From assembly GCA_022841345.1 (NCBI GenBank), contig JALHRR010000002.1, positions 124,001-188,000 of the forward strand: 64,000 nt of DNA, given 5' to 3'. Source of the DNA: Saprospiraceae bacterium. Lineage in GTDB: Bacteria > Bacteroidota > Bacteroidia > Chitinophagales > Saprospiraceae. Of this stretch, positions 15,743 to 40,105 are shown piece by piece. The notes under the pieces were generated by a model. That model saw only the letters and a program-made list of their open reading frames with translations. It was not told where the DNA came from and searched no databases. A program made the translations under genes and the position numbers. How positions within the stretch are numbered: position 1 is the first letter of the stretch; every line of letters begins with the position of its first letter.

Positions 15743-15777
15743 AAAAAAGGCCGCCTTCACTGAAGAAAGCGACCTTT
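15743..15777 (-). terminator. Intrinsic terminator after the anti-sigma-like gene
   Basis: Minus strand reads AAGGTCGCTTTC, six-base loop, GAAGGCGGCCTT (12 pairs, two wobbles), followed by T-rich bases 15743-15748. It lies 29 bases past the stop of the leftward gene ending at 15806 and could also stop the converging methyltransferase transcript. Confidence 0.7.
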
Positions 15778-15805: not shown

Positions 15806-16543
15806 TTAATTCTTTTCAAGCTGATCCAGTGCTCTGCCAGCTTGCTGCCGGAATATATGATCAGATTGTTTGCTGATTTTTTGAAGAAGTGCTTTACTTT
15901 CTGCTTGCTGGTCTACTTTCAGTGCTGCCAGAGCCAGATACCATTCTCCTTTTTGCTGAAGTCTGCTGTCTTCTGGCTCATAAAATTTGAGGGTTTCATA
16001 AGCTTGTTTGTATTTTTGATCTCCCAGATACGACATAGCCAGATAAAATTGAACACTGTCCGGCTTGATTTTATCCCTGCTCAATGTCAGGAATTTGAAG
16101 GTTGATTTGCTGTAATCACCCATTTTGTAATCGACCATGGCATCATCAAATTCATACTCCAGGGTTTCATCCATTCGGGAAGGTAATCCCGGATCTGCTT
16201 CAAACATACTTGCAAAAACCTGGTCATTGGCCGGAACCGGCCTGGTGATCCACCAGGTAAGTCCGATTCCAATCATCAGTACTACAGTGGCAGCGATGCT
16301 CAAATTTCTGAAGTCCAGTTTTTTGTCCTCTTTTTTGAGCCGATCCCATTTCTGATCGATATTATTCAACTGGCTTTTTAAAGTTCCGACTTCTACCATT
16401 TCCATCAGCAATTTTTGTTCTTCCAACTGACTTCTCAGTTCTGCACTTTGCTGTATATCGCTTTCGAATTGGGCCTTTTCTGTTGCGGTCATTTTGTCTG
16501 TCAGATACATATCAATCTTGTCAGACCATTCTAGATTATTCAT
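15806..16543 (-). CDS. Anti-sigma-factor-like membrane protein with TPR-type periplasmic domain
   Basis: 245 residues. The N-terminal ~75 residues are charged and helical (IDMYLTDKMTATEKAQFESDIQ), the typical opening of an anti-sigma domain. One transmembrane helix follows (LSIAATVVLMIGIGLTWWI, ~82-100). The C-terminal ~120 residues are helical-repeat-like (MGDYSKSTFKFLTLSRDK, SVQFYLAMSYLGDQKYKQAYETLKFY), resembling TPRs in the periplasm. Its start overlaps the sigma gene stop by four bases, the usual sign of a sigma/anti-sigma pair. It would hold the sigma factor at the membrane until a signal reaches the TPR domain. Role inferred from context and architecture. Confidence 0.8.
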   Translation of the reverse strand: MNNLEWSDKIDMYLTDKMTATEKAQFESDIQQSAELRSQLEEQKLLMEMVEVGTLKSQLNNIDQKWDRLKKEDKKLDFRNLSIAATVVLMIGIGLTWWITRPVPANDQVFASMFEADPGLPSRMDETLEYEFDDAMVDYKMGDYSKSTFKFLTLSRDKIKPDSVQFYLAMSYLGDQKYKQAYETLKFYEPEDSRLQQKGEWYLALAALKVDQQAESKALLQKISKQSDHIFRQQAGRALDQLEKN

Positions 16544-17142
16544 AAACTATTGATTTTAAATTGTGTACTCAATGATTTTAGTTTTTCCATACATCTGTAC
16601 TTTTCATTTTTCACTGATGCCGTTTGAAGGCCTGTTATTGCTGCTATATCTGCCATTGATTTCTTTTCGAAATAAAATGCTCCCAATAGATTTTTGCATT
16701 TATCTCCCAGCTGATTAAAAACAGATTGTAATTTCTCAATTCTTTCCAGCTGATGTGATTGTTCTTCCGGATTTGAATCCCATGGTGCATCAAAATCCTT
16801 TGTAAGTGGAACCTCATATTTAACTTTTCCGGATTTAACTTTTTCGTACAATCGATATTGCACCATCCGAATCAAATATGTACTCATTTTGGCATTTTCA
16901 CGCACCTGATATTTACCACTTTTGATATTTTGCCAGAGTGCGATGATAGCGTCCTGAAACATGTCTTTTAATAATTCCGGATCATTACCGGGGATTAGAA
17001 GCGCTTTTTCTGCCTGAGGTAAGCAGGTTTTGTACAGGTATTCAAAGGCTCTTTCGTTTCCATTCTGAATCATTTGAAATAATTCATGATCTGTAAATGA
17101 AGACTCTTTTTTGTAAAGTGAAAATGATAAAATACTGCCCAT
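16540..17142 (-). CDS. RNA polymerase sigma factor, sigma-70/ECF family
   Basis: 200 residues. Region 2: FTDHELFQMIQNGNERAFEYLYKT, then ELLKDMFQDAIIALWQNI with the -10 recognition helix. Region 4: QLGDKCKNLLGAFYFEKKSMADIAAITGLQTASVKNEKYRCMEKL, a helix-turn-helix for the -35 box. No sigma regions 1 or 3, hence ECF-type. Translationally coupled to the anti-sigma-like gene downstream. Upstream on the same strand lie a secreted papain-like protease and two TPR-CHAT proteins, suggesting a signal-driven regulon, although a terminator at 17225-17248 makes this pair a separate transcript. Confidence 0.88.
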   Translation of the reverse strand: MGSILSFSLYKKESSFTDHELFQMIQNGNERAFEYLYKTCLPQAEKALLIPGNDPELLKDMFQDAIIALWQNIKSGKYQVRENAKMSTYLIRMVQYRLYEKVKSGKVKYEVPLTKDFDAPWDSNPEEQSHQLERIEKLQSVFNQLGDKCKNLLGAFYFEKKSMADIAAITGLQTASVKNEKYRCMEKLKSLSTQFKINSL

Positions 17143-17220
17143 GATAGTTGCCCTTTAGTTGATGAGAAAATGGGTAAATCGAACAGGTATGTGAAAAATA
17201 TTGTCCTTACCCTGGGTTGA

Positions 17221-17248
17221 AAAAAGGCCCGACCTTTGCCGGGCCTTT
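17221..17248 (-). terminator. Intrinsic terminator of the papain-like protease gene
   Basis: Minus strand AAGGCCCG, short loop, CGGGCCTT followed by six T: a perfect 8-base-pair stem (17225-17232 with 17241-17248). It is 14 bases past the protease stop and upstream of the sigma gene. Confidence 0.85.
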
Positions 17249-17261
17249 AAGTTCTTACTAT

Positions 17262-18905
17262 TTATCTTGATCTTTTAGCTTTTGCAGCTTGATGAGCTAC
17301 TATTTTGCTTTGCAATTTTCCGGATTTTTTATGGTCAAGAAGCATATTGCTTATTTCCGTATGGGTGTAGGCATTGTAATTAGCTCTTGACATTTGTCTT
17401 GGTGAATCCAATTTTGCTCCTGCAGTCGGGGCTGAAAGTTTGCGGGTTGCAGGGTTATTATCCTGGAGTCCCTGAACGATACCGTTTTGAATATAGACCG
17501 GATCACCATATTCATTGCCCAGATAATAGAAGTTATTTGATTCATCTGTTTCCTGGATGGCATCATAGGCATCAGCTATTGCAACTAAGTAGTAGTATCC
17601 GGTAATATTTGGCATTGTATAATTCCAGGTCACATAACTGTCGTCAAATAATTCTTCTGCCATCCCTGATCCTGAAGGGATATCGATATTATTCCACCAG
17701 TTGCCGGAGAAGCCCGGGCCACTTTGAAGAGGGCCATTGTCACCGATACTTCCGTACTCATTGGTATAAGAATCGTAGAGAATGATTCCATAGTCGTTGG
17801 CATTGAATGCATTGTAGTAGATATAACACATGTTCCATTTAGAGGAGGCTTTTACTGCTTGTCTTCCAATATTGTAAATATTGTAGTAAGCTGTGCGTTC
17901 TCTCTGATTGCCGGTCCCAGCAAAATCATCGCTAACATTCCAAGGGATCAGGTCATAGTCACCTGTGGTTGGACCTGGATTATCATCCGGATTAAAATCA
18001 CCTTTTGCGTTAGATACTACACAAACCAGGAACCCAAATTCAGGATTGATCATAAAATTGTAGTCTACCCAAATAAAGCCTGTCGCTCCCCAATTGCTTC
18101 CCCATGAATTATTGACTTTGAAGGCTCCATTAGGACCTTTGGAATCATCATAGCCCACGATTACCATTGCGTGATTGGCATGCTGGCCTACCTGACTGAA
18201 ACCTGAGTGACTGCTTAAGACTGCTTCAGAATTCCAGCTCATGAAATTATCTCCCAGTCTGGCTCCCAATACTACAGGTCTGTTCTGTGATATATAGGTT
18301 TTGATTTCATTTACATTCAGATTAATCTTTCTGAAACTTTCAAGTTTGTTGTTGCCAGCTTCCTGAGTCCAGGATTGCTGTGGACTTGAATTACAGCTCA
18401 GGCTGGAATTGTAAGGAGCAGTTTGTGCAGATGCTGCTCCTCTTTTGATTAGAATTTCAAACGCATCTTCGAAATTTGTTCCACCACAATCGTTTCCTTT
18501 AGCAGTTGTAGGGATAGCCATCCAAAGATCCGCTGCACTCGTTTGTCTCGAAGCACTTGCCAGATCCGTTTTGCTCCAGTTATTGTCGATACCGTTTACT
18601 GCTGTTTTGGTGTTGTATCCTACCGCCCAGGCAACACAAGTGCCATATTGACCCTGATTACCTACAGGTGGAAATTTGTCTGTGAGATCATATTTAGAAG
18701 GTACTGTTGTATTTCCAATGCTAAGGTTAATGCTGGATGGGATTTTCGTTGGATCATCATCGCCGTTCAGTCCGAGACTGCGCTGAGTTGGATCGACCTG
18801 GTCATTTGGAATATTAAGGTCTTTTTTGCAGGCACCAAGTAATAGAACTACCAGGAGCAGAGAGAATGCAGATTTGAAGAAGTTTGAAGAAAGGAAAGTT
18901 TTCAT
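17262..18905 (-). CDS. Lipoprotein C1-family (papain-like) cysteine peptidase with CARDB-type domain
   Basis: 547 residues. Lipoprotein signal with lipobox LLGAC (C26). The peptidase core shows the papain triad: Q84 and C90 in GNQGQYGTCVAWA, H245 in QHANHAMVIVGYDD, and N266 in VNNSWGSNWG, which also has the WG..GF pattern. No obvious propeptide longer than the ~40-residue spacer. Residues ~315-470 resemble a CARDB adhesion module ending ETDESNNFYYLG. The final ~60 residues are basic (HKKSGKLQSKIVAHQAAKAKRSR). It should sit in the outer membrane or at the cell surface and cleave extracytoplasmic proteins. Context with sigma/anti-sigma and CHAT proteases suggests part of a proteolytic system. 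Confidence 0.9.
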   Translation of the reverse strand: MKTFLSSNFFKSAFSLLLVVLLLGACKKDLNIPNDQVDPTQRSLGLNGDDDPTKIPSSINLSIGNTTVPSKYDLTDKFPPVGNQGQYGTCVAWAVGYNTKTAVNGIDNNWSKTDLASASRQTSAADLWMAIPTTAKGNDCGGTNFEDAFEILIKRGAASAQTAPYNSSLSCNSSPQQSWTQEAGNNKLESFRKINLNVNEIKTYISQNRPVVLGARLGDNFMSWNSEAVLSSHSGFSQVGQHANHAMVIVGYDDSKGPNGAFKVNNSWGSNWGATGFIWVDYNFMINPEFGFLVCVVSNAKGDFNPDDNPGPTTGDYDLIPWNVSDDFAGTGNQRERTAYYNIYNIGRQAVKASSKWNMCYIYYNAFNANDYGIILYDSYTNEYGSIGDNGPLQSGPGFSGNWWNNIDIPSGSGMAEELFDDSYVTWNYTMPNITGYYYLVAIADAYDAIQETDESNNFYYLGNEYGDPVYIQNGIVQGLQDNNPATRKLSAPTAGAKLDSPRQMSRANYNAYTHTEISNMLLDHKKSGKLQSKIVAHQAAKAKRSR

Positions 18906-18969
18906 GATGAAGAGGATTTAAGAAGTAGTGATTAATGATTAGGTTAAAAAGGAGTTTTTGAAAAGAGTG

Positions 18970-19860
18970 TTATTTAGTTTTTTTCAGCTTGGTAATATCA
19001 GGTTGTTTAAGTCCTGCATGTACACCCTCCAAACTGATAGGGCCATTTACAGTAGTATCATTCCAGAGAAGAGATTTTTGCAACCAAACATTCGTGAGAT
19101 TCAATGAACCTTCAATTCTGGAACTAAGTATTTCAAAACGATGATAAAATGAAGCATCAGTAAAATCCAATGTTTTATGACAATTTGTGTAGTTGAAAAA
19201 TGCACCTTTTCTGAAAAAACACAGGCTGGCGTCCCAGTATCCGTAGACTTCTGCGTTGCCCCATTGTGCATCTTCGAAGAAATCAGATTGTTGCATATTC
19301 AGAGTTCCGCCGACTTCAAGATTCATTGCCTGGAACAAACCCCTCAAACGACTTTCCTGCATTTCAAAATTGCCTAAAATATGAGTTTTGAAAAATGAGC
19401 ACGTTTGCTCGAATTTTGTTGCTTTCATTTGCATATGCTGCTCTACTATAGACTCAGTGAGTAAAAAGTCATCAAAAAATATTGCATTTGATAAATTAAT
19501 CTCTGATTTGAACCGGCAATTGTGAAATTGTACAGGTCTTTCAAACCTGCAGACCTCATACATTTGATTTTTTACGCTTTGAGCAATGATTTTTCCGTGG
19601 AAAATACAGCTATCAAATAGTATAGTAGATGAGATATTAGAATACCCGGCCTGAATACTTGAAGATCTGCGATCTTTTAATTTTGTAAAATCAATGTCAC
19701 CTTTAATTTCAGCTCCTTTGATATGTATATTCTTGCCCTGATTCAGCGCTTCTATTATTTGTTCTCCGGTCCATGATCCGGAACTTGGTTTTTTACTGGC
19801 ACTGCTGCAACAAAGGATGAATAAAAGCAATGGTAAAAGGATATATAAAGTGGTTTTCAT
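18970..19860 (-). CDS. Lipoprotein with pentapeptide-like beta-helix
   Basis: 296 residues. Lipoprotein signal LLLFILCCSS (lipidated C at ~17/18). The rest is made of degenerate repeats with a hydrophobic residue every five positions (IKGAEIKGDIDFTKL, FDSCIFHGKII, FHNCRFKSEINLSNAIFFDDFLL), as in pentapeptide-repeat right-handed beta-helices. The last ~35 residues return to DGPISLEGVHAGLKQ-like text. No catalytic motif. It lies 64 bases upstream of the papain-like gene on the same strand and downstream of the two CHAT genes; a scaffold or inhibitor role is conceivable but unproven. Confidence 0.7.
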   Translation of the reverse strand: MKTTLYILLPLLLFILCCSSASKKPSSGSWTGEQIIEALNQGKNIHIKGAEIKGDIDFTKLKDRRSSSIQAGYSNISSTILFDSCIFHGKIIAQSVKNQMYEVCRFERPVQFHNCRFKSEINLSNAIFFDDFLLTESIVEQHMQMKATKFEQTCSFFKTHILGNFEMQESRLRGLFQAMNLEVGGTLNMQQSDFFEDAQWGNAEVYGYWDASLCFFRKGAFFNYTNCHKTLDFTDASFYHRFEILSSRIEGSLNLTNVWLQKSLLWNDTTVNGPISLEGVHAGLKQPDITKLKKTK

Positions 19861-20021
19861 AGTTTGTTTTTCTGATTATAGGTTTAGATCATTAAAAGTC
19901 ATCAAAGATTTTGATGAAATTTTTAAAAATTATGTCATGCTATATTGTAGATGTCATCTCATTGGAATAAGACGATCTCATTGTATTTTATAGGAAAGTG
20001 CATGGCTGGAAAATTGTCTGA

Positions 20022-23000
20022 CTAAAAAATCATATTTCCTCTTAGTTTAATTACAAAGAAAACCAGCACGAGTATGATCAAAATAACTGAAGTCCAGGGA
20101 AGCCAGGTTTTCCAAAAAGGGAAGGATGCCGGGATCCATGATTGGTTTTCTCCAATTAATACCAGTCCACCCCAATATAATGGATTGTGAATACTGCCTC
20201 CATTTTGAGCAAGATATTCCATTTTGGCATTTCGTAAAGATTCAGAAAATGTCAGGCCTTGTTTGAGATTTTTATAGAAACTTATTGCTATGTCTGAGCT
20301 GGCCTGATCGTCCACTGACCATAATGTCATCAAAGTACTGGGGCAGCCGGCATAATGAAAGGCATGGGCCAGAGAAATGACACCTTCACCGGATTCGAAT
20401 TTTCCGGAACCTGTCTGGCAGGCTGTCAGTACAGTAAGTTTGGCAGGAATGCGCATGCCATATAGTTCGGCCGCAGTTATAAATTCATATCCGGCTTTAT
20501 TTTCTTTCTGATTGCATCCCATCACCAATCCTGAATAAAGAGGCTTGTCCTTATTAGAAATAGCATGCGTTCCAAAATGCAGAATGGACGCTTCTTTCAT
20601 TAGATCCAGTACTTTCTGCTTTTCTACCTCCTTACCTGACAAGTATTTACCATAATAAATTTCCTTCATCTCCTCCAGCGCTTTAGCTGCCCAGGGCAGG
20701 CGTATCATTTTTCTGCCCTCATCTGTAGTACACCCTGAATTATCTGAATCCCCGCTAAATGGCGCAAAACCTGCAATACCTTCAAAGGTTTTTTCGGATC
20801 CATCCTGACCACTTGTCCGCATCATTATAGTAATCGAATGACTCAGCCAAATCTCAACAGAATGAATTAAGTAGGAAAGGTTTTCATACCGGCAGATTGC
20901 ATTGTGCTCAACTGATTTTTGGGTAATGAGTATTTCAGGGTTTAGTGAGTGAAAATGTAAATCGGGTACCCAGATTAATTTGTCCGGAAGGAATGTTTCC
21001 AAATCTTCAAATAGTACTGAGTATAAATATTGTGCATTGCCAATAAACTGCGAACAATCATCATTCTGCATCCGAAGATGCATATCTTCAATACATCCCT
21101 GAAGCATATGTACGGGCCCCGGTTCTGTAAGAATTGCGGTATCTCTGGTTATATATAAACCATAGTAATCGCTTACACCTACCAAAATCTGGTAAATACC
21201 AGTACTTTCATCCAGCAGGTTTTGCGTTTGTTGCAGTGTAATCGATGACAGGTCAAATCGAATAGCAGCATAATCGGGGTATTTATCTTTTATGTAGCCC
21301 CTGATGGAGTCATATTCCTGTTTCCACAAAGTATATTTCTTGTCCCAATCTTCTGATCCATCTTCCTGATTTTCCTGCAGATATAAATGAATCATTTGAG
21401 AAAGTTGTCTTTCTCGGTCAATGAGAGAATCTGGCACACCATTGAAACCAGCAGCCTGCTCACCCCTGATTGCATCCCGCAAGTTAAATGCTTTGCTATC
21501 CTCACTGAATGAAAATAATTCGGCTAAATGATTAACATCACCGTCTTTCCTAAATTGAGCAACTGTAATGTCAGTTAGCAAGGCAAAGTCCTTATTCTTT
21601 TCGTTGAGAATATCTTTTTGATTGCGTAAACTTCCCAATGTCAGATATCTTTCATTCTGTATGTTGATACCTATTTTCAAAGCATCTTTTGCAGATTCAT
21701 ACAACTTAGGGTCATATTGTTTCTGTCCCATCTGATACAAGATTCTTGCCTTAAGCTGCATAGTTTGACTTGCCAGGAAAGGCAGCATTTCTTTATAATC
21801 TGCAGGATTATCAAGGTGTGATGCGTATTTCCAGGATGGTTGAAAACTATAAGAAATGGTTTTCTGCACTACCTCCAATGCTTTTTTGGAATCACCACTT
21901 AAGAATAATATTTCGGCGACATCCAGCTCAGATTCAATTGTGTACTTATGATGCGGTCCAAATAATTTATCATAGAGTTGGATTGCCCGGTATGCGTTAT
22001 TCAGAGCTTCATTCCATTCATGCTTAGATCTGTAAGTTTTAGATAATTCTGAATAAATATGAGGGATGATCACGTCGTCCTCATCCCCATAGCCGATGGC
22101 AATTTGCAATGATTTGCGATATAATTCAATAGCTTTATCATAATCCTGCACTGTGACATATATATCTGCAATATTGTAGTAATATAGAGCGACAGAAGGT
22201 GAATTTGGTCCGAACAATTCCAGTTTCAATGCGCCGGCTTTTTCAAAAGTCAGATATGCATCTTCTATCCTGCGAAGAAGAATAAATGCGCTGCCCAGCT
22301 GGTCATAAAGATTTGCCAGCAAGTGCGTATTTCTGGCTTTGTCTTTTAAAAATATTGCTTCTGCTTGTCTGGTATATTGCATGGCAGATTCAAAATCTCC
22401 TATTGTCTGGAGATATCGCGCTTTGTTGGTATAATTGATTGCCAGAGAACGCTCGTTCTTCACCTTTAAATTATTCTCTATTGCTGTATTGAGAAAGAAC
22501 AAAAAGGAGTCCAGATTTCCTTCATAATAATAGATAGAGGACAGATTGTTATAGGATGCAATATTAATCCGGTGCGCAGGTCCGCTCAATTTGGTCGCTA
22601 TTTCAATGGCTTTATAATAGTCTGATTTGATGCTATCCGGATGGTCAGTTCTGGAAATTGCACGTTGCACATATCCGGTAGCCAAGCTCATATGGTCCTG
22701 TCGATATATCTTTTTTTTGATCTCAATACTTTTATTATGGTACTCAAATGCAATATCATTTTGCTCCATAAAATAACAGATACTTCCCAGGAGAGCATAG
22801 CTCTTTGCAATCATTGAATCAGCTGGCGGCAGATGTCTGAGTTTTAGCTCTAAAGATTGCCTGAAAATAGGAAGCGCTTCATTAAATTTATTTACTTCAT
22901 ACAGCAGATATGCTTCCTCGTCCATGATTTCAGCCAACTTAACCGAATCAGCAGGAAAACATTCCCTGTGCAATTGCTTGTAGTCATTTAACAAGGAGTA

Positions 23001-23273
23001 TGCTTCTTCGATACTGGTGTGAGAAGTAATGCTTCTTACATGAAATGATAATAAGCCAAACTCATCCTGATACTGATGATTTTTTTGATATTCATTGCGA
23101 AGCAATGTGATATAAAATAGCGTTGAATCGTATTTGGCGTTATAAAAATGATCCTCAATTTTCTGTCTCCAGCCAAATGGATCTGAATAAGTGTAAGATT
23201 GACCTACACTGAAAATAAATCCAATGGAAAGAATAAATACGAATCTTTTCATAGCTACTAATGGCTTTCTCAA
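20022..23273 (-). CDS. Exported TPR-CHAT (caspase-fold) protein, copy 1
   Basis: 1083 residues. A signal peptide (MKRFVFILSIGFIFSVGQSY after a seven-residue lead; alternative start M8) is followed by ~600 residues of tetratricopeptide repeats (for example AKSYALLGSICYFMEQNDIAFEY, SVALYYYNIADIYVTVQDYDKAIELYRKSL). The C-terminal third is a CHAT domain with the His-Cys dyad: H903 in ILHFGTHAISN and C952 in VLTACQTGSGKFESGEG, with MTLWSVDD after it. A transmembrane helix ends the protein (VILIILVLVFFVIKL, ~1063-1077). The protease domain would thus be extracytoplasmic and membrane-tethered. CHAT domains are caspase relatives cleaving specific partners; TPRs usually sense or recruit. Paralogue of the next gene upstream. 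Confidence 0.88.
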   Translation of the reverse strand: MRKPLVAMKRFVFILSIGFIFSVGQSYTYSDPFGWRQKIEDHFYNAKYDSTLFYITLLRNEYQKNHQYQDEFGLLSFHVRSITSHTSIEEAYSLLNDYKQLHRECFPADSVKLAEIMDEEAYLLYEVNKFNEALPIFRQSLELKLRHLPPADSMIAKSYALLGSICYFMEQNDIAFEYHNKSIEIKKKIYRQDHMSLATGYVQRAISRTDHPDSIKSDYYKAIEIATKLSGPAHRINIASYNNLSSIYYYEGNLDSFLFFLNTAIENNLKVKNERSLAINYTNKARYLQTIGDFESAMQYTRQAEAIFLKDKARNTHLLANLYDQLGSAFILLRRIEDAYLTFEKAGALKLELFGPNSPSVALYYYNIADIYVTVQDYDKAIELYRKSLQIAIGYGDEDDVIIPHIYSELSKTYRSKHEWNEALNNAYRAIQLYDKLFGPHHKYTIESELDVAEILFLSGDSKKALEVVQKTISYSFQPSWKYASHLDNPADYKEMLPFLASQTMQLKARILYQMGQKQYDPKLYESAKDALKIGINIQNERYLTLGSLRNQKDILNEKNKDFALLTDITVAQFRKDGDVNHLAELFSFSEDSKAFNLRDAIRGEQAAGFNGVPDSLIDRERQLSQMIHLYLQENQEDGSEDWDKKYTLWKQEYDSIRGYIKDKYPDYAAIRFDLSSITLQQTQNLLDESTGIYQILVGVSDYYGLYITRDTAILTEPGPVHMLQGCIEDMHLRMQNDDCSQFIGNAQYLYSVLFEDLETFLPDKLIWVPDLHFHSLNPEILITQKSVEHNAICRYENLSYLIHSVEIWLSHSITIMMRTSGQDGSEKTFEGIAGFAPFSGDSDNSGCTTDEGRKMIRLPWAAKALEEMKEIYYGKYLSGKEVEKQKVLDLMKEASILHFGTHAISNKDKPLYSGLVMGCNQKENKAGYEFITAAELYGMRIPAKLTVLTACQTGSGKFESGEGVISLAHAFHYAGCPSTLMTLWSVDDQASSDIAISFYKNLKQGLTFSESLRNAKMEYLAQNGGSIHNPLYWGGLVLIGENQSWIPASFPFWKTWLPWTSVILIILVLVFFVIKLRGNMIF

Positions 23274-23355
23274 TTATCAATCATCAATATGAATGAAGCC
23301 CATTTTTAAGGAGAATATTTAGTTGCATAATAAACTTAAGAAAAGCAAAAACAAC

Positions 23356-26300
23356 TTAGCTACTTTGTTTCATTTTTTTTCTAAAGAACAACAATAGCAG
23401 CAGCAAAAAAACAACAGCAACACCTATCGCCGGCCCATAAGAAATAAATGAAGATTTGGATTCCATCAGAACAATTTGATTTTCACCGATCATCACCATG
23501 CCGGCCCAATAAACCGGATTGGCGAGATCTCCGGTGTGATTTCTCAGGTACTCCTTTTTTGCAGAATGCAGAGCGTTCGAGATCGTCAGCTGTTGTCTTA
23601 AATTCCGATAAAAGTGAAGAACAATCTCAGAGCTGGCCCTGTCATCCACAGACCATAAAGTCATCAGCAGACTGGGGCAACCACCAAAATTGAATGCTCT
23701 CGCCAGAGAAATGACGCCTTCGCCGGATTCAAATTTTCCTTTTCCAGTCTGACAAGCAGTCAGTACTGCAAGTTTTGCGTTCAATGGAATTCCATATAAT
23801 TCTGCAGCACTCAAATTCCTTGCCTCCCAGGAGGGATCCTCCTGATTGCATGCCAACACTAATCCTGATCGCAGTGGTTCTTCATTGTTCGTAATCGCAT
23901 GCGTTCCAAAATGCAAAATATTTGAATGGCTTAAATAGGCTAAAACTTCAGATTTTGTGGCTTGTTCACCCATCAGGAAATTGCCTTTATATTGAACATT
24001 CAATTCGTTAATGGCTTTTTCTGACCATGGAAGACGGATCAGTTTTTTATCTGAATCAATACATGACTTATCTTTCTGAATTTCGCTAAAGGGAGAAATT
24101 GCTAACAGAGGATATGCCGCTTTGGGCTCATCCACATAATCATACCATTCCTGAGTCAATACAACTGAATGATTAACAATGAATTCAAAATCATTTAATA
24201 AATATGCAAGTTCACCAAAATCAATTCCGGAATCTTCATTTGGCAATTCACTTATCAGCACCTCGGGGTTCAATTGATGAAAATATGCATCCGGGATCCA
24301 TATTACTGTAGGCGTCAATTGATTAAAAATGTCATCGAATAGCGAAGTGTAAAGAAAATTGGATGATTGACTGAATTGCTGAATCCTGGCCTCATTCATT
24401 GCCTGATACATTTCATCCACACAGCCTTCCATCATGGATATATGACCGCATTTAGATACATGAAATTCATTTTTGTTAATAAAAAGTCTGAAGTAGTTAT
24501 CGACTCCTTTCATCAATACGACGAGGCACTCATCTTCCCCTAATGATTTTTGAGTTTGCTGACGAGAGACAGGATCAAGGTCATACCTGATTTCAGCATA
24601 TTGTGGAAATGAGTCACGAAAAATCTGTTCGATTCGGTCCAGCCTTTCCTGCAGTTCAATATATTTTTTTTTGTAAACATCGTCTTCAGGATCGTACTCA
24701 TTTTCCATGAATAGTCTTATTTGATGCGTAAGTTTTTTTTCTTCAGCTACCAAACTGTCAGGAATTCCTGCATAAGAAGCTGCTTTGTCACCCCTCAAAA
24801 GATCTCTGAGATTGAAGGCTTTACTATTTTCAGAAAATTCAAAAAGTTCATCGAGAAAAGTGGAATCACCGCTCATTTCAAACAGATCAAAACTTAACTC
24901 AGCTTTAAATCTGTAAATTTCAGAGAGTGTTTGTACCACATCTTTTCTGTTTTCCAGTCCTCCAAGTTGATGATAAGATTTATTCTGATTGGATGTACCG
25001 ATATCCAGCGTTTTATAAGCTGCCATTAAATATTTGATATCATTGTTTTGTAAACCGTATAGCTTCAAAAGCTGGTATTTATTGACCACAATATCATTTA
25101 ATGCATAGTTGTATTTTAATAATTCTACAGGTGGGTTTTCCAGAACATTCTTTGAATGCCATTTATCAACAGTAATCAGGGACAGGCATTCCTGCAGGAC
25201 GGACAATGCCCGATTGTGCTCTCCCATCAGGGTGTATATGTTCGCAAGATTAGCGAGATCTCCAATATGGTATTGATGGAATTTTCCATAATTTTCGCGG
25301 TAAATTTCAGATGATTGTTTAAAATATGCCAGTGCTTTGGGGTACTGTCCCAGCTTTCTGTAGCAATCTCCCATATCACTCAGACAATCTGCATAAAGAG
25401 GATTGTCCGCTCCCAGCAATTCTTTTCGAATATCTGCTGATTTACTATAATGATCCAAAGCCTCGAACAATCTGTTTTGGTAATAACATGTTCTTCCCAT
25501 ATTATACCAATATTGGGCATATGGCATAGATTCTGTACCAAAAAGTTCTTCCTTGAATGCCCTTCCTTTCTCGAAAAAAGTTTCAGCCTCTTTATAGAAA
25601 CCCAGTGTTTGGTAAAATCCACCCATTTGATCATAGAGATTAAACAAGAAGTATTTTTCTTCTTCTGCTTTTTCCTCAAAAAGTAACATGGATTTTCTGC
25701 AGTAATAAAAGCCATGTTCCCAATCTCCGCCCCCCCAATAAAAGCGTGATAGATTGGCATAATTCGTGGCCAGAGCTCTTCTGTTTTTTACAGGATCTTT
25801 CTCATTATTCTTTATAGATATCATCAGTGTCTGAATCGCTTCATCGATTCTGCCTGTATCGTAATAAAGATTGGAGAGATTATTATAGCAGATATTTAAG
25901 CCCTTAAAATCTTCTCCGTGCAGCTTCTTGAAAATTTCAATAGCTGCAATGAAATCTTTCTCGGTTTCTTCTGATTTGTCATACCGGGTTCCTGCCCTTA
26001 ACAAATAATATACGGCGAGCATCCTGTCATCCTTCAGAGCTGATTTCAATCTGATTTTTATTGCTTTTTCAATCTCCACCTCTGCCCTTGAATACTCTCC
26101 GGCATAACTGTAGCTTTCGGCCAGATAGGAATGATTGATAGCAAGGAATGAATCAACGGGTGATAATATCTTTTGTCTTAATACAAGATTATCCTGAAAT
26201 AAACGCTGCGCTTCTTCTATTCGAAACTCCTCCAGATATAACATTGCCTGTTCATCCTGCAATATAGTCTGAAGAAACAAATTACCGGAATAGCATTCAT

Positions 26301-26622
26301 TAAAGATGGTTTTGTATCGATTGTATACTTCATTTCCTTTTTCAATACCCAATGATTTGGACGCTGCACGGATATGATATTTAATAATTCCCCAAATGGA
26401 ATCATATAATTGATTTTCTACGTAATAATTGAAAAGCGGATCCACATACAGCCAGGTTGAGTCCGGCTCCAGCCTGTTGTGAAAATGAATGGTTTTTTGC
26501 TTTAGTGCGGAAGGATTTGGTAAATCAGACGCAAGGGAAAGAGCCCATACTATGCATATAATACAGGGCAATATCAGATATCTATAATTCATCCTGCTTT
26601 TCTTCAATGGGCTCTTCATCAA
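23356..26622 (-). CDS. Exported TPR-CHAT (caspase-fold) protein, copy 2
   Basis: 1088 residues, same architecture as its neighbour: signal/anchor YLILPCIICIVWALSLAS (best start M1, M2 or M11), about twelve TPR-like repeats to residue ~620, a linker, and a CHAT domain with H908 (ILHFGTHAITN) and C957 (VLTACQTGKGKFESGEG). A C-terminal hydrophobic helix (AIGVAVVFLLLLLLFF) precedes the basic tail RKKMKQSS. The tail order (helix then positive charges) supports a single-pass anchor with the CHAT domain outside the cytoplasm. Copies 1 and 2 are nearly collinear and share the linker text around SFSEDSKAFNLRD/FSENSKAFNLRD, so they arose by duplication. The 82-base gap suggests one transcript. Confidence 0.88.
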   Translation of the reverse strand: MMKSPLKKSRMNYRYLILPCIICIVWALSLASDLPNPSALKQKTIHFHNRLEPDSTWLYVDPLFNYYVENQLYDSIWGIIKYHIRAASKSLGIEKGNEVYNRYKTIFNECYSGNLFLQTILQDEQAMLYLEEFRIEEAQRLFQDNLVLRQKILSPVDSFLAINHSYLAESYSYAGEYSRAEVEIEKAIKIRLKSALKDDRMLAVYYLLRAGTRYDKSEETEKDFIAAIEIFKKLHGEDFKGLNICYNNLSNLYYDTGRIDEAIQTLMISIKNNEKDPVKNRRALATNYANLSRFYWGGGDWEHGFYYCRKSMLLFEEKAEEEKYFLFNLYDQMGGFYQTLGFYKEAETFFEKGRAFKEELFGTESMPYAQYWYNMGRTCYYQNRLFEALDHYSKSADIRKELLGADNPLYADCLSDMGDCYRKLGQYPKALAYFKQSSEIYRENYGKFHQYHIGDLANLANIYTLMGEHNRALSVLQECLSLITVDKWHSKNVLENPPVELLKYNYALNDIVVNKYQLLKLYGLQNNDIKYLMAAYKTLDIGTSNQNKSYHQLGGLENRKDVVQTLSEIYRFKAELSFDLFEMSGDSTFLDELFEFSENSKAFNLRDLLRGDKAASYAGIPDSLVAEEKKLTHQIRLFMENEYDPEDDVYKKKYIELQERLDRIEQIFRDSFPQYAEIRYDLDPVSRQQTQKSLGEDECLVVLMKGVDNYFRLFINKNEFHVSKCGHISMMEGCVDEMYQAMNEARIQQFSQSSNFLYTSLFDDIFNQLTPTVIWIPDAYFHQLNPEVLISELPNEDSGIDFGELAYLLNDFEFIVNHSVVLTQEWYDYVDEPKAAYPLLAISPFSEIQKDKSCIDSDKKLIRLPWSEKAINELNVQYKGNFLMGEQATKSEVLAYLSHSNILHFGTHAITNNEEPLRSGLVLACNQEDPSWEARNLSAAELYGIPLNAKLAVLTACQTGKGKFESGEGVISLARAFNFGGCPSLLMTLWSVDDRASSEIVLHFYRNLRQQLTISNALHSAKKEYLRNHTGDLANPVYWAGMVMIGENQIVLMESKSSFISYGPAIGVAVVFLLLLLLFFRKKMKQSS

Positions 26623-31320: not shown

Positions 31321-32334
31321 TCAAATCTGCTTTAGCTCAAATGCATATTCATAACTGATGACGCTTTTACCTTTTTCGTTTTTCTTCCAGGCTTCTTCCA
31401 AATGACTTAATTCAATCATATCACTTGTACTAGTGGATTTAAATACTGCAGTAACTTTCTCTAAGACTTCTAATTCAGCTTCCGAAAACAAATCTGCTTT
31501 AAATGTTCTGTCTTTTCTTGCTTTGAATTGTTCGCCCGTATATCCATCACGAAATTCCGTGGTATAAATATCTATTTCATCTTTATTAGCCAGATATTCA
31601 AATATGCTTTGAAAATTATTGGGAACAGGTCCCATATCTATGGCATGATATCTTACCCCACTAATGGAAAAACAGCTCTGTTTAAACATTGAAAAGTCGG
31701 CATAAAACAGTAGCTTGTTCATCTTGGTTTTGAATGGTTCTATTTTCTCTGAAAAGTAAACTACCATTTCAGTAAACTTTTCAAAGTTAGGATTTCTGTA
31801 TCCTGAATAAATATCTGCTAAAGGATTCCCTAATAAATATTTTTTGAAATTCAAATTGAAAATGTTTCGTTTTCTTTCTTCCAGCAATAATTGCGCTTTC
31901 TGAATGTATTTTGCCTTCACTTGATCATTCAGTGTTCCGCATAAATCCACCAAATTAATAAAATACTTAGGGTCAGCCACCATCTGAATTAACTTGGCGT
32001 TAGCAATACTGGGCATTTCTCCTGCTTCGTATTGGCGGTAACTATTTACCCCAAAACCTAATATCTCAGATATCTTTGCTGCTGGTAAACTATATTTTTC
32101 ACGAATTCTGGCGATTTCATCCGGAAAGGGGATATTGAATTTGTCCCGGTACTGATTGTATACCTGGTTCATATTCACTTCATCTAATGAGGTGCTTGTA
32201 AATTGCTCTCCGCTGTCTTCACATTTATAAAAATGAAAAACGATTTCAAATGTTTCCTTTCGGAAATCCATTGATCTTCTCTCCTTGCTCAATTTCATTT
32301 CTTTACCTGTGATGGGACTTTTCATATGGGTCAT
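31321..32334 (-). CDS. Panacea-domain (DUF4065) antitoxin with MqsA-like HTH N-terminus
   Basis: 337 residues. Residues ~4-45 align with the MqsA zinc ribbon but the cysteines are mostly lost (SPITGKEM and YKCEDSGEQF where CxxC pairs are expected). Residues ~70-115 form an HTH (YSLPAAKISEILGFGVNSYRQYEAGEMPSIANAKLI). The C-terminal half carries the Panacea motif (KMNKLLFYADF, GVRYHAIDMGPVPNNFQSIFEYL). Panacea domains neutralise diverse toxins. The ATG is 1 base past the toxin stop, so the two genes are coupled, toxin first, as in mqsRA. It likely autoregulates via the HTH. Confidence 0.85.
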   Translation of the reverse strand: MTHMKSPITGKEMKLSKERRSMDFRKETFEIVFHFYKCEDSGEQFTSTSLDEVNMNQVYNQYRDKFNIPFPDEIARIREKYSLPAAKISEILGFGVNSYRQYEAGEMPSIANAKLIQMVADPKYFINLVDLCGTLNDQVKAKYIQKAQLLLEERKRNIFNLNFKKYLLGNPLADIYSGYRNPNFEKFTEMVVYFSEKIEPFKTKMNKLLFYADFSMFKQSCFSISGVRYHAIDMGPVPNNFQSIFEYLANKDEIDIYTTEFRDGYTGEQFKARKDRTFKADLFSEAELEVLEKVTAVFKSTSTSDMIELSHLEEAWKKNEKGKSVISYEYAFELKQI

Positions 32335-35129: not shown

Positions 35130-38100
35130 CTAAAACCTCATCACCAATCTCGCCCCAGAACGCTCCCCATCCGTCACCCTCACAATAAATTGCCCGGGCC
35201 ATCCAGTGTCAATTGAAAAATGTTCCATAAAAATGGATTTTTCCTTCTTAGCTAAAACAGTCTTTAAAACACGTCCATCCAGACTAGAGAATTCGATTTT
35301 GAGTTCACCAGTAAAGTTATTTTGAAGAGAAATTTGGAGCAAATCATCTTTGGACATCGGATTAGGGAAGACCTGAAAACTGCCAGATGCATCGTCTGAC
35401 GAAAAAATTCCTACAGTGCATTCTTTGACCTCAATCGTTTTTGTGGTAAAGGAGGAACAAAGGTTTCCATCTGTGACAGTAACTGAGTATGTTTTAGTCG
35501 ATGCGGGAATTAGCTCAATTTCTGAACCCAGCTGACCGGTACTCCAGACATAGTCTACTCCTCCGCTGGCTGAGATCAGGATGGTATCTCCCAGACATAC
35601 GGTGTCAGGAGCATTGATCATAGCTACAGGCAGAGGATGTGGAATAATGAGTGCCGAACCTCCCGTCAATCCATTACCCAATTCATTGGATACACTTAAA
35701 AGTGAATATGCACTTTGAATACCCGGATTCAATTCTAGCAGATAAGGATTATCAGAAGTGATGACTGCAGGCAATGGCGTTCCATTTTCAGCCAGTATGA
35801 AAGTATATGGCGATAATCCTTCAAATATGATACTCAATTCCGCACTATCTCCCAGACATATCTCCGTACTTCCTTCCAAAAATGCAGTCAGCGGGACCTT
35901 ACAGACTTGCTTTATTTCATTCATACTGTTGCATCCGAATTTATTGAATTCGACTTGTGCAAATTTTCCTGAATTCAGATAGGCACAGATATTTGGTTGA
36001 GAACAGCCCGATAGTGATTCAGAGCCTGAAATTTCAATAAGAATAAGTGATAAAAGATTCATATTTCTGATTCCATCCAGATGTGTCAACTTATCGTTAT
36101 CGCTGATGAAAAAGACCGTAGGAGATGAAGTTACGTTGCTTAGTGCATCCAGGTTTTCAAGGGCAGGATTTTGAATGATGCTGAGCTCTGTTCTGATAGT
36201 ATCCAAACTTTGGAGTCCGGATAAAGTTTTCAGCTGACTATTATCCCAAATTTGCAAATTAGAAAGGCTTTTCAGACTGGACAAATGATGGAGGTTTTCT
36301 AAGGAGTGACAGTCTATAATACCCAATTGTCCGGTAAAATTATCAGCAGAGGTCCCTATATTACTGATATTCTCAAGACCTTGCAGACTCCTAAGGGAAT
36401 CCAAGCCCTGCAGCGCAATAGAGCCATTTATATTTTCCAGCTTTTGCAAAGAACTCAAATCAGTCAGTACAGAGGCAAATCGCAAGTGTAATTCGGCCCC
36501 AATTTGACTAAGGGAGTCAAGTCCTGACAAGGTGCTGAGAGAACTACAATGATAAACTGAAAGGCTTTTTCCTATCTCTTTAAGTTTGTTTAATCCCTCA
36601 AGGTTTTGCAACTCCTGATTACTGAAAATCACTAAATCTCCACCAACAATCTTCAGCGATTCAAGTCCGGTCAAATCTGAGATATTCGTTTCCTCAATAA
36701 TGAAATCACCATGAATATATTCCAGATTGGAGAAGCCGTGCAGATTTTCTATTCGCTCAGCACTTAGGGAAGGGCCTATACTAATTGTTACGGATCCTTC
36801 TATCACTTTGCAGTTAGGATAAGTTGTTGGGAAAAGATCAAGCTGATGTTGTTTAGTATAATGAATTTCAGCAGGGCAGGTGGGAGGAACGCTCACGCAA
36901 GTCCCCGGATTGTCAAAAACATAGGTTTTAATGATTCCGGGATTTATTTGATCCTGTATGGAAATAGTTACCTGAGCCGCCGCGTTTGCACTTCCATCCG
37001 GTAAAAAATATATTTCCGGAAATTGATACTGTCCTTCGTTCCAACCAAAATCTATATGTTGCGGTGTGCCTAAGTCTGAATTTATCGTGTAAGAATAAGT
37101 GCTCGTTGTGTCATTGTATATCGCTGCATCTATTTCAATTTTTATACGGTCATCCGAAGGATCAGCAGGTGTGAAGGAATCGTCGCAACTTACTTTGATA
37201 AAATTGATGCCAATTCCTGTTGGCGCATCGGGTGAGCAGCCTGGGGTCGATTGTCTGTAAAATTCCTTCTTCAGTTCCTGATTAATCAAGTCCCTAAATG
37301 AATATGTCCCGGTAGTAAAAATTCCAGCAGAACCTGATGGAAAAGCGTAAGAATTGATTCTGTCATAAAAGAAAGTGTCAAGAGTTGTCTGAGTAAACTC
37401 ATCGAAGAGGATAAAGCGATCTGAAAAAGTAGTATTTCCGATGGAGGCTAATTTGAAACGCAGTACCTGGCGATCATCTGTGGCGTCAAGAGCTGTACCA
37501 TTGTCGTCACAGATACTGTTGTTGATGATCAACTGCAGACCGGGAGCAGGCTCGGGATAAAGGTTTTTAATCCAGGATAACCGGTCATAAGCATTCAAAT
37601 CACCCGAATATATTGAATTATTTCCGAAAACAATGTCCAGTTTTCCGTCACCGTCTACATCATGTGGAGCAAGAGCATGCAGATTGCCGAAATTGGGTTC
37701 CTGATACATTGTGGTCGCAGCTCCAAAAGTACTGCTACCCAAACCCCGAATCAATGTAAATCTGTTACTGTGATTATCGCTTACGACCAGATCTCTGAGG
37801 CCATCCAAATCTACATCAAATACACAAAAATAAGGAGTAGACCAAGCCGGATGATTCATTGTAAGCAGCGTTTGCTCAGAGCTGAAACCTGAAGTGCCCA
37901 GATTTTTATACCATGCAACTATTGTACGTGTATAATCCCGTGTACAGTACACATAATCTACCTTACCGTCACCATCCAAATCTGTAAATAAATCCTGATT
38001 TACCCTGGTTGGAGAAGGTGTTCCTGACGGAAAAAGACTGGTAGGAGCGGCGAAGTTTCCTCCTCCTAAATTCAGGTAAACTCTGGGAGAATGAGTAGCA

Positions 38101-39713
38101 AAAAATAACATCCCAATATCCACAAGGTTATCTTCATTTACATCCAGAGCAAATATTTCGGAGCAAAATTGAAGCCCTGTAGCCAGCAAGTGCGCTATAA
38201 AATTTCCTGTTCCGTCGTTTTCAAACCAATAGAAGCGTGCATTTTCTATTGTTGATTCTGTTCCATTGGCAGCAAAAAGATCAAGATCACCATCGCCATC
38301 CAGATCTGCTCCTCCTACTTGTTTGCAGGAAGTGACAAGTCCGTCAAGAATTTGTGATGCTCCAAACTGACCGTTGCCCAGTCCCTTTTGCCAGGCAATG
38401 TAATCTCCCTGAGGTAATGCAAGGTCTTTGATCCCGTCTCCGTCCAGGTCTCCATAAAATGACTTGCTACCTGTACCCGCCGAAGCGCGACGTTTATTGG
38501 CGTATTGGCCATTCCCAAGATTTTCAAAAACAAATCCGGAAGTAAAAATATCCATATCACCGTCGTTTTCCAGATCGGCTATTTCTATTGCCTGGGGTAA
38601 AGCCATTTTTTGGTCAAGGTTAATGAATGTTGTGAAACTCCCGGGACCAAGGTTTCGCAACCAGCCGAGTCGGGGTCCACCTACAACAGCACCTGTTAAA
38701 ATATCAGGATGGCCATCTCCATTCAAGTCAAGAATTTGAGAAAACTCATGGGTCTGAAGGTATGAATTATGGTTTTTGGGGACGGGATCAAACAGACCTG
38801 TTGCTTCATCGAAAGCAAAATACTTTGCACGGCTGCCGTTGCTGTTCCCTACTGCCCCCACAAAAAGATCCTGGTCTCCATCATCATCAAGATCTCCCAG
38901 ACTTACACCATCTCTATGATATTGCGGCAATGTTTGTTTTAATGTTTGCTGGCCATCAGTGTCAAACTCATACCAATGAATATTGCCATCATGACCTGTT
39001 ATAATGTCCGGTTTACCGTTGTTGTCTATATTTCCTGTTGTGAGTACCCTTGGTATGGAAGGTGAGAACTGTACCGCTTCAAATTGACTGTTACCCAGAT
39101 TTTTATACCAGAAGCAGGTATTATTATGTCGGGCGATAAAGTCCTGTTTGCCATCTGAATTCAGATCAACATCCAAATTGTAAATATTGGGGAAGGCGAC
39201 AGTGCTTATAATTATGCGGGGACCAAAATTTCCCGATCCAAGGTTTCTCTGCCAATATATTCTGGTATCATCACGGGTAATGGCATCAGGCAACCCATCG
39301 GAATCTACATCACATAAGGTAGCAAGACTATTCGACAGGATGCTTGTCTGAGGCGCAAATTCCCCGTTTCCAAGACCTTTCCTCCAATACAAATCAAAAA
39401 TTAAATCAGGTAAACTATCTCCATCAATATCCTGAAATCGTCCTCCCAGGAAACCGATTGTATTTGGCATTTTGACAGCAAAGAGTTCCAAATCATCGGA
39501 GAAAGTGCCGCCACCAAGGTTTTTATACCAGATAAGACTGGATGAATGAGGAACCAATATATCTTTAGCTCCATCCCCATCTATATCTGCAGTCCAGATT
39601 CCGAGTTGGTTGGTCCTGACACTTTGAGATATTGTCTGAGGCGTACCTGTAAATTGAGCCTTAGCCTGATTTAATAAAAAGATACACACAATCAGGAGAA
39701 ATAATTTATCCAT
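35130..39713 (-). CDS. Giant T9SS-secreted FG-GAP surface protein, copy 1
   Basis: 1527 residues from ATG at 39713; the ATG at 39773 would add 20 residues before the signal and overlap the promoter. Signal LFLLIVCIFLLNQAKA. Residues ~25-720 are more than ten FG-GAP/VCBS beta-propeller repeats with Ca-binding DxDGDGxxD loops (TADIDGDGAKDILV, DLDGDGIKDLALP). A middle region (~970-1230) has leucine-rich receptor-L-like repeats (LTGLESLKIVGGDLVIF). Two PKD-like modules (AFLEGSTEICLGDS; DTVCLGDTILISASGG) precede a type IX sorting domain (SGSFQVFPNPMSKDDLL to the end). Cell-surface adhesin or binding protein. Tandem paralogue of the next gene. Confidence 0.88.
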   Translation of the reverse strand: MDKLFLLIVCIFLLNQAKAQFTGTPQTISQSVRTNQLGIWTADIDGDGAKDILVPHSSSLIWYKNLGGGTFSDDLELFAVKMPNTIGFLGGRFQDIDGDSLPDLIFDLYWRKGLGNGEFAPQTSILSNSLATLCDVDSDGLPDAITRDDTRIYWQRNLGSGNFGPRIIISTVAFPNIYNLDVDLNSDGKQDFIARHNNTCFWYKNLGNSQFEAVQFSPSIPRVLTTGNIDNNGKPDIITGHDGNIHWYEFDTDGQQTLKQTLPQYHRDGVSLGDLDDDGDQDLFVGAVGNSNGSRAKYFAFDEATGLFDPVPKNHNSYLQTHEFSQILDLNGDGHPDILTGAVVGGPRLGWLRNLGPGSFTTFINLDQKMALPQAIEIADLENDGDMDIFTSGFVFENLGNGQYANKRRASAGTGSKSFYGDLDGDGIKDLALPQGDYIAWQKGLGNGQFGASQILDGLVTSCKQVGGADLDGDGDLDLFAANGTESTIENARFYWFENDGTGNFIAHLLATGLQFCSEIFALDVNEDNLVDIGMLFFATHSPRVYLNLGGGNFAAPTSLFPSGTPSPTRVNQDLFTDLDGDGKVDYVYCTRDYTRTIVAWYKNLGTSGFSSEQTLLTMNHPAWSTPYFCVFDVDLDGLRDLVVSDNHSNRFTLIRGLGSSTFGAATTMYQEPNFGNLHALAPHDVDGDGKLDIVFGNNSIYSGDLNAYDRLSWIKNLYPEPAPGLQLIINNSICDDNGTALDATDDRQVLRFKLASIGNTTFSDRFILFDEFTQTTLDTFFYDRINSYAFPSGSAGIFTTGTYSFRDLINQELKKEFYRQSTPGCSPDAPTGIGINFIKVSCDDSFTPADPSDDRIKIEIDAAIYNDTTSTYSYTINSDLGTPQHIDFGWNEGQYQFPEIYFLPDGSANAAAQVTISIQDQINPGIIKTYVFDNPGTCVSVPPTCPAEIHYTKQHQLDLFPTTYPNCKVIEGSVTISIGPSLSAERIENLHGFSNLEYIHGDFIIEETNISDLTGLESLKIVGGDLVIFSNQELQNLEGLNKLKEIGKSLSVYHCSSLSTLSGLDSLSQIGAELHLRFASVLTDLSSLQKLENINGSIALQGLDSLRSLQGLENISNIGTSADNFTGQLGIIDCHSLENLHHLSSLKSLSNLQIWDNSQLKTLSGLQSLDTIRTELSIIQNPALENLDALSNVTSSPTVFFISDNDKLTHLDGIRNMNLLSLILIEISGSESLSGCSQPNICAYLNSGKFAQVEFNKFGCNSMNEIKQVCKVPLTAFLEGSTEICLGDSAELSIIFEGLSPYTFILAENGTPLPAVITSDNPYLLELNPGIQSAYSLLSVSNELGNGLTGGSALIIPHPLPVAMINAPDTVCLGDTILISASGGVDYVWSTGQLGSEIELIPASTKTYSVTVTDGNLCSSFTTKTIEVKECTVGIFSSDDASGSFQVFPNPMSKDDLLQISLQNNFTGELKIEFSSLDGRVLKTVLAKKEKSIFMEHFSIDTGWPGQFIVRVTDGERSGARLVMRF

Positions 39714-39734
39714 GAGAAGGGGGATTTCATATTG

Positions 39735-39742
39735 CAAAGGTA
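39735..39742 (-). promoter_or_regulatory. -7 element TACCTTTG of giant gene copy 1
   Basis: Exact TAnnTTTG on the minus strand, 21 bases upstream of the ATG at 39713. The ~60 bases further upstream are nearly identical to those before copy 2 at 44692. Confidence 0.55.
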
Positions 39743-39826
39743 AATGTCTGAAAATGATTTGTAGGTTCATCATTTTTAGGATATTAAATTATTGTGAAAT
39801 GGAACCTTTTGCTTTTCTACTAAAAA

Positions 39827-40105
39827 CCAACTTTATCCTTAACAAGTCTGTTTTAATTGCTGTTAGGGCCATGGTCCCTCAACGCCTTAACGAGGCTGTT
39901 CCCGGCTGTTTTCTTCAACGATTCAACACGCTTTAACGCTTTAACGAGGGTGTTCGCCCGGCTGTTTACGACTCAACGACTCAGCGCCTTAACGAGGCTG
40001 TTTGGCTGTTCCCGGCTGTTCCGATTAACCAAATAACCGATTACCATTTTCCGGGCTGTTTTCTTCAACGCTTCAACGCTTCAACGCTTTAACGAGGCTG
40101 TTCCC
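39827..40105. repeat. ggctgtt / taacgagg repeat spacer between the tandem giant genes
   Basis: At least four copies of a phrase close to ttaacgaggctgttcccggctgtt, joined by runs such as cttcaacgcttcaacgcttt. No open frame of note. It sits exactly between the duplicated genes, so it may mark the duplication junction. Confidence 0.75.

Follow-up and report, generated by a model that had tools for sequence, protein, structure and literature searches.

Gene content of the locus

We analyzed a 64,000-nucleotide stretch of DNA (hereafter, the window) from Saprospiraceae bacterium (GenBank assembly GCA_022841345.1, contig JALHRR010000002.1, positions 124,001 to 188,000 of the forward strand). Six consecutive leftward open reading frames (ORFs) in the window encode, in this order, two predicted TPR-CHAT proteases (CHAT1 and CHAT2), a pentapeptide-repeat lipoprotein, a papain-family lipoprotein, an extracytoplasmic function (ECF) sigma factor and an anti-sigma-like membrane protein (Table 1). 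The original prediction, made from the sequence of the window, proposed that all six genes form a proteolytic signalling locus; both the uninterrupted leftward run and the active-site residues that it named in the papain-family and CHAT proteins were confirmed on checking. The analysis presented below reveals a smaller core: an ECF sigma factor, a TPR-bearing membrane anti-sigma factor and a membrane-anchored TPR-CHAT protein constitute a recurrent module in Bacteroidota, to which the papain and pentapeptide lipoproteins, judging from sequence comparisons, look accessory, possibly as outputs.

Table 1. Features of the six-gene locus, in the order in which the genes are read (positions in the window)
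Feature	Positions	Strand	Evidence and remarks
CHAT1, predicted TPR-CHAT protease	23356..26622	-	PF12770, E 1.3e-43, and TPR_12; H908/C957
CHAT2, predicted TPR-CHAT protease with signal peptide and C-terminal membrane helix	20022..23273	-	PF12770, E 5.2e-41, and TPR_12; H903/C952
Accessory pentapeptide-repeat lipoprotein	18970..19860	-	PF13576, E 5e-7
Accessory papain-family (C1) lipoprotein	17262..18905	-	PF00112, E 1e-19; lipobox C26; triad C90/H245/N266
Intrinsic-terminator-like hairpin in the papain/sigma gap	17223..17248	-	U-run; -20.5 kcal/mol; z -3.4; 0/200 shuffles fold as well
ECF sigma factor, 200 aa	16540..17142	-	TIGR02937, E 2e-18, 66.3 bits (cut-off 42.9)
Anti-sigma-like membrane protein, 245 aa	15806..16543	-	Predicted cytoplasmic helical N-terminal domain, one transmembrane helix, periplasmic TPR domain
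Transmembrane helix of the anti-sigma-like protein, residues 79-100	16244..16309	-	Hydrophobic stretch; helix in model
Exposed juxtamembrane loop of the anti-sigma-like protein, residues 114-126, FEADPGLPSRMDE	16166..16204	-	Candidate cleavage site around R123/M124
Terminator-like hairpin 3' of the anti-sigma gene	15746..15777	-	Fold prediction

The match of the sigma factor to TIGR02937 exceeds the family cut-off. The family matches of the anti-sigma-like protein are weak and below cut-off (NCBIfam anti-sigma, E 0.01-0.02), and its N-terminal domain, helical in the structural model, gave only sub-threshold matches to anti-sigma families; it is position, topology and kinship that point to an anti-sigma factor. 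The gene directly follows that of the ECF sigma factor and the product has a single transmembrane helix, which is the layout of class I membrane anti-sigma factors. A sigma gene lies directly upstream in 39 of the 40 related loci fetched, and a transmembrane stretch is present in 68 of the 70 relatives linked to a CHAT gene. An AlphaFold2 model (mean predicted local distance difference test score, pLDDT, 90.9) orders the protein as a helical N-terminal domain, the membrane helix, a short helix (residues 105-113), the loop and the TPR helices, and was matched by Foldseek to the TPR folds BamD and YbgF (best E 2e-3). At L075:8732-10276, a gene located between an anti-sigma gene and a CHAT-family TPR gene cut by the contig end encodes another membrane TPR protein, which has the juxtamembrane EPYP motif in common with the anti-sigma and lacks the anti-sigma domain.

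As listed, both CHAT ORFs open with TTG; the likely starts are in-frame ATG codons, at codon 2 or 11 in CHAT1 and at codon 8 in CHAT2. The two proteins are 35% identical over 1078 aligned columns, and no further CHAT gene was found in this genome; related genomes have up to 49 first-look TPR-CHAT candidates each. A large tandem array, with seven CHAT matches on one strand within ~21 kb, was observed at G045:C619:22848-44270. Both window proteins match PF12770 above the family cut-off with the His and Cys in place, and these two residues are invariant in 70/70 CHATs linked to an anti-sigma gene. Because the linked CHATs carry an N-terminal hydrophobic stretch (67/70) and a membrane helix at the extreme C-terminal end (60/70), their TPRs and protease domain are predicted to be located in the periplasm. 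When the CHAT1 model was compared with solved structures using Foldseek, the top seven matches were all human separase, and when the CHATs were searched by sequence profile against solved structures, the matches listed (the best 60 of 185) were all to TPRs. A Glu conserved in 71 of 75 linked CHATs (A870 in the window) is replaced in the clade of the window's CHATs described below (the DPGLP clade); this column was considered as a hint to the S1 pocket (R versus M) and dropped, as it could not be placed in the pocket.

Because a strong hairpin with a U-run splits the papain gene from the sigma gene, the six genes probably do not constitute a single operon, and that arrangement was rejected. The sequence features suggest, as the likely transcription units, CHAT1-CHAT2, perhaps extended through the pentapeptide and papain genes, and sigma-anti-sigma. 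Folding revealed no structure in the 64-base gap between the pentapeptide and papain genes. No shared ECF promoter-like dyad was found among the window's five upstream regions, although five short regions give such a comparison low power. In the papain-family protein, the Cys/His/Asn triad falls inside the PF00112 match.

Recurrence and partner matching

Among 119 related genomes, homologues of the sigma factor were found in 115, of CHAT in 82 and of the anti-sigma in 66. The best anti-sigma match was fetched with its surroundings from each of 40 of these 66 genomes, and a CHAT gene lay within 8 kb in 24 of the 40 loci. Together with the matches listed for eight multi-copy genomes, these loci provided 58 anti-sigma genes flanked on each side by 5 kb or more of sequence; a CHAT gene lay within 5 kb of 41 of them, and within 8 kb of 42. 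These genomes are rich in both CHAT and ECF genes, which would favor a fortuitous grouping; however, the number expected from CHAT density is 2.07, and the maximum reached in 200,000 simulated draws was 11. We thus reject chance, which we consider next to impossible as an explanation. Relative to the anti-sigma gene, the 42 CHAT genes within 8 kb are convergent (18), divergent (13) or on the same strand (11), and these mixed orientations imply that the proximity survived rearrangement rather than reflecting one inherited operon.

The association extends beyond the family of the window: a CHAT gene was present within 5 kb of the anti-sigma in 14 of 20 outside loci hand-picked among strong matches. 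A search that started from CHAT gave a first set of 30 loci, 10 of which had an anti-sigma gene within 5 kb, or 7 of 27 after dropping three loci that had entered through their anti-sigma. In a further set from named genomes, comprising 98 CHAT proteins (one identical to a protein in the other sets), an anti-sigma gene was located within 5 kb in 42 of 79 loci and within 1 kb in 32. The loci come from, among others, Aquimarina, Tenacibaculum, Kordia, Psychroserpens, Prolixibacter, Parapedobacter, Lewinella and Phaeodactylibacter. Because the queries for this set were CHATs of the clade to which the window's belong, the set leans towards that clade. One locus (L064) resembles the window in layout, with a CHAT gene, two lipoprotein genes, sigma and anti-sigma on a single strand. 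Overall, the co-occurrence of sigma, anti-sigma and CHAT spans families and orders of the phylum and at least two of its classes. The comparison of gene neighbourhoods proposed in the original prediction therefore upholds the sigma/anti-sigma/CHAT association and refutes chance; membership of the papain and pentapeptide genes in the recurring set was not supported.

The linked proteins also co-diverge. In 70 linked triples from 29 genomes, the tree distances of anti-sigma and CHAT are correlated (rho 0.275), a value reached in 2 of 1000 within-genome permutations (mean 0.113, sd 0.074); as a yardstick, sigma and anti-sigma distances gave a rho of 0.368, reached in 0 of 1000. Moreover, CHATs are matched to anti-sigma subtypes. 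The window's anti-sigma carries a juxtamembrane variant labelled DPGLP, as distinct from FEPYP-R-G anti-sigmas, a label defined after the first sequences had been viewed, with eight further CHATs from named genomes coming later. In a tree of 107 CHAT domains, all nine CHATs located beside DPGLP anti-sigmas, including the two in the window, form one clade (SH-aLRT 98), and the trait changes once on this tree as against 8.8 times in shuffles. A second tree contained 101 of 201 rows, namely, all 17 DPGLP rows, a sampled remainder and a few forced in, and grouped the 17 DPGLP CHATs with two others in one clade (19 members, support 99). Those two adjoin anti-sigmas with the DVGLP and EAGL variants, which the pattern missed and which were seen by eye. 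For 14 of the 19, the CHAT and anti-sigma genes share a strand and the CHAT begins within ~100 bp of the anti-sigma; a fifteenth CHAT is the second copy of a tandem. In Parapedobacter soli (L288), sigma, anti-sigma and CHAT form, in this order, a tight operon with CHAT only 15 bp past the anti-sigma. Since CHATs of the DPGLP clade elsewhere lie directly behind the same type of anti-sigma, the CHATs and the anti-sigma of the window are very probably cognate. Like the window, L278:6003-12544 and L277:9989-21390 have tandem CHATs next to a single sigma/anti-sigma pair; in the latter, the pair is enclosed by the CHATs.

The model of the anti-sigma further draws attention to its juxtamembrane loop. 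The pLDDT dips to 66 at residues 121-130, the sole strong dip besides the cytoplasmic edge of the membrane helix. Across 124 CHAT-linked relatives, one loop column holds R (86), M (20) or K (8), 114/124 in total, and the next column holds G or S in 99/124. An alignment-free count likewise found [RKM][GS] in the loops of 98/124 linked relatives compared with 45.8 in shuffled segments. This conserved R/K/M-G/S pair between the membrane helix and the TPRs is a candidate cleavage site, a designation that draws on the alignment and the model.

Proposed mechanism and alternatives

Recurrent proximity, co-divergence, matched subtypes, kept catalytic residues, predicted topology and the conserved loop are the observations that favor regarding the locus as one copy of a three-part envelope module of Bacteroidota, in which CHAT would free sigma by cutting the anti-sigma. 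Based on sequence, models and analogy, we assign this reading a probability of roughly 0.55. What we infer is the protease activity together with its substrate and cut site, the steps after the cut and the regulon, as follows. The membrane anti-sigma would retain the ECF sigma at the membrane's inner face, with its TPR domain exposed to the periplasm. The TPR-CHAT protein would be exported and anchored by its C-terminal helix in the inner membrane, so that its TPRs and separase-like active site would be periplasmic. Upon sensing an envelope or invader signal through the TPRs, the activated CHAT would cut the anti-sigma in the exposed loop between membrane helix and TPRs (site 1), a step suggested by analogy with Csx29 and with RseA-type control, and general membrane and cytoplasmic proteases would then degrade the rest of the inhibitor. 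The freed sigma would probably transcribe genes of neighbouring exported proteins. Exported effectors are suggested as the output by the neighbours, that is, papain and pentapeptide lipoproteins in the window and, elsewhere, lipoproteins, proteins sorted by the type IX secretion system (T9SS), an M4 peptidase and cytolysins resembling cholesterol-dependent cytolysins (CDC-like). Large T9SS-tailed proteins (Por_Secre_tail) flank DPGLP-type operons at L067:5473-9000 and L288:13045-17391 and may be regulon members. At L065:5102-8305, an M4 metallopeptidase gene is divergent to a sigma/anti-sigma pair of the DPGLP type with no CHAT gene nearby.

Several findings weigh against this reading. No CHAT gene lies within 5 kb of 17 of the 58 anti-sigma genes, one of them at a locus from the same genus (L063). 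Conversely, 37 of 79 CHAT loci in the named genomes and 20 of 30 in the first set have no anti-sigma gene within 5 kb; with about half of the CHAT loci in this situation, many CHATs must have some other role. The window's own CHAT genes are 3.5 and 6.8 kb away from the anti-sigma gene, with the terminator between. The correlation of sigma with CHAT distances is unclear, being reached in 59 of 1000 within-genome permutations. In one FastTree run, to which further and partly truncated CHATs had been added, the DPGLP clade was weaker and did not stay intact, L193 and L202 falling outside and L071 inside; the two mixture-model trees are preferred for their better model and CHAT-domain alignment. 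The CHAT1 model is of middling quality (pLDDT 72, below 50 in parts of the CHAT domain), and its TM-scores with separase are ~0.25. As to the loop, anti-sigmas that are not linked to CHAT carry the motif equally often (R/K/M in 19/24 and G/S in 20/24; [RKM][GS] in 18/24 versus 8.9 when shuffled). The motif was accordingly rejected as a separator of the two groups, and its presence alone does not link the loop to CHAT; its role may be structural, or another protease may cut there. Finally, the anti-sigma of the window has D rather than G or S after M124.

The main rival assigns CHAT to the output: sigma and anti-sigma would sense alone and drive the neighbouring CHAT gene, the substrate being another exported protein, such as a CDC-like cytolysin or, in the window, the papain zymogen. 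The commonness of CHAT loci without an anti-sigma fits this arrangement, as do several Aquimarina loci in which the sigma and CHAT genes are divergent and ~100-300 bp apart, as in a shared control region. In addition, a gene for a CDC-like cytolysin lipoprotein adjoins a same-strand CHAT gene in four loci (L084, L069, L220 and L120), and CDC-like toxins of Bacteroidota need proteolytic activation, according to a published study (PMC11169675). However, cytolysin genes are present in just these four of the fetched loci, the low-power comparison of the window's five upstream regions provided no shared promoter-like dyad, and CHAT as an output leaves unexplained both the match between CHAT clade and anti-sigma subtype and the within-genome correlation of anti-sigma and CHAT distances. 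We consider it unlikely. The cytolysin genes, each beside a sigma-linked CHAT, are located at L084:6697-8556, L069:12047-13870, L220:4964-6763 and L120:10627-12300; the first product matches PF01289, and the other three were recognized by sequence similarity (E 3e-256 to 3e-25). CHAT could activate the neighbouring CDC-like cytolysin. Less probable still is that CHAT and anti-sigma bind through their TPRs without cleavage, CHAT acting as sensor or co-inhibitor while another site-1 protease cuts the loop. Both proteins carry predicted periplasmic TPR arrays and the loop motif is kept in anti-sigmas without a nearby CHAT, as this explanation would have it, but a non-enzymatic role would not need the His and Cys that are invariant in all 70 linked CHATs.

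The inclusion of all six genes, papain and pentapeptide among them, in one proteolytic signalling system, as envisaged in the original prediction, was not borne out, and we deem it very improbable. In L063, homologues of the pentapeptide and papain genes likewise adjoin sigma and anti-sigma, and papain homologues of greater divergence (E 1e-12 to 1e-28) are encoded in six of the other fetched loci. Yet, no CHAT gene lies beside the four genes in L063, which is the only fetched locus with close homologues of both lipoproteins; the pentapeptide gene is in no other fetched locus, and relatives with the DPGLP variant have other genes in the papain/pentapeptide place. Given the absence of an adjacent CHAT in L063 and the terminator before sigma in the window, the two lipoproteins were rejected as core parts. 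The L063 genome has CHATs elsewhere, and one of these, truncated by a contig end, branches close to the DPGLP clade, although this position is weakly supported.

Returning to the cleavage of the anti-sigma by CHAT, the proposal might be generalized, tentatively and at slightly worse than even odds, to a phylum-wide, CRISPR-free route. Inner-membrane TPR-CHATs would be the dedicated site-1 proteases of cognate anti-sigmas, with many parallel pairs per genome and with specificity conferred by the juxtamembrane loop, representing an ancestral-style envelope counterpart of Craspase. If this is true, many bacterial CHAT proteins acquire a first function and this orphan class of caspase-like proteins gains substrates testable at once; the sigma arm of Craspase gains a CRISPR-free relative, and Bacteroidota possess numerous envelope sensors that work in parallel and are insulated from one another.

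Two other regions of the window were noted. Two adjoining giant genes at 35130-44692 (1547 and 1528 aa), whose products contain FG-GAP repeats as well as receptor L domains, are probably a tandem duplication. A gene at 31321-32334 combines SocA/Panacea and MqsA-antitoxin domains, a possible toxin-antitoxin component.

Comparison with known systems

In the literature searched, with most subscription journals outside its coverage, no report of a CRISPR-free envelope version was found, and only the Craspase papers join CHAT proteases to sigma control. The nearest precedent is indeed the CRISPR-associated Craspase. According to PMC10028731, the type III-E set comprises the TPR-CHAT protease Csx29, the inhibitor Csx30 and the ECF factor CASP-sigma; Csx29 cleaves the inhibitor within a loop that is small and flexible, after which a sigma response ensues. 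The locus described here is similar in that a TPR-CHAT protein with a His/Cys dyad, an ECF sigma factor and a putative inhibitor are encoded nearby. In contrast, Csx29 is bound and activated by Cas7-11 and target RNA, whereas the window CHAT has a predicted signal peptide and membrane helix, and the inhibitor is a membrane protein. The signal-peptide-like stretches (67/70) and C-terminal helices (60/70) of the linked CHATs likewise set them apart from a cytoplasmic, effector-bound protease. No Cas7-11 or other Cas gene was detected among the 16 window proteins scanned with PADLOC; a sub-threshold match of the sigma factor to Cas11b (E 0.03) was dismissed as chance. In the CalpL/CalpT/CalpS system, a type III CRISPR Lon-SAVED protease also frees an ECF-like sigma factor from its inhibitor; unlike the presumed CHAT route, it relies on a Lon-type, second-messenger-activated, cytoplasmic protease.

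Separase, which cuts after Arg, shares with the CHATs a helical superhelix joined to a caspase-like domain; the proteins described here differ in being bacterial, exported and membrane-anchored by prediction, with an anti-sigma as the presumed substrate. In the same phylum, C11 clan CD proteases of Bacteroidales cut at Arg (R70 and R62 sites), as stated in PMC11169675. The presence of Arg-cutting clan CD proteases in the phylum fits the R-bearing loop of the anti-sigma. The transmembrane anti-sigma factor DdvA (PDB 8rw5) is also a membrane anti-sigma, and the fold match to it runs through the TPR-like part.

Regulated proteolysis of a membrane anti-sigma is exemplified by DegS/RseP-RseA-sigmaE. 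The proposed module would resemble this pathway in having a membrane anti-sigma with a periplasmic domain and a presumed first cut in the periplasm. It would differ in that its first cut is presumably made by a separase-like CHAT cysteine protease as the site-1 enzyme rather than by a PDZ serine protease, and in that most genomes with linked genes would hold many parallel pairs.

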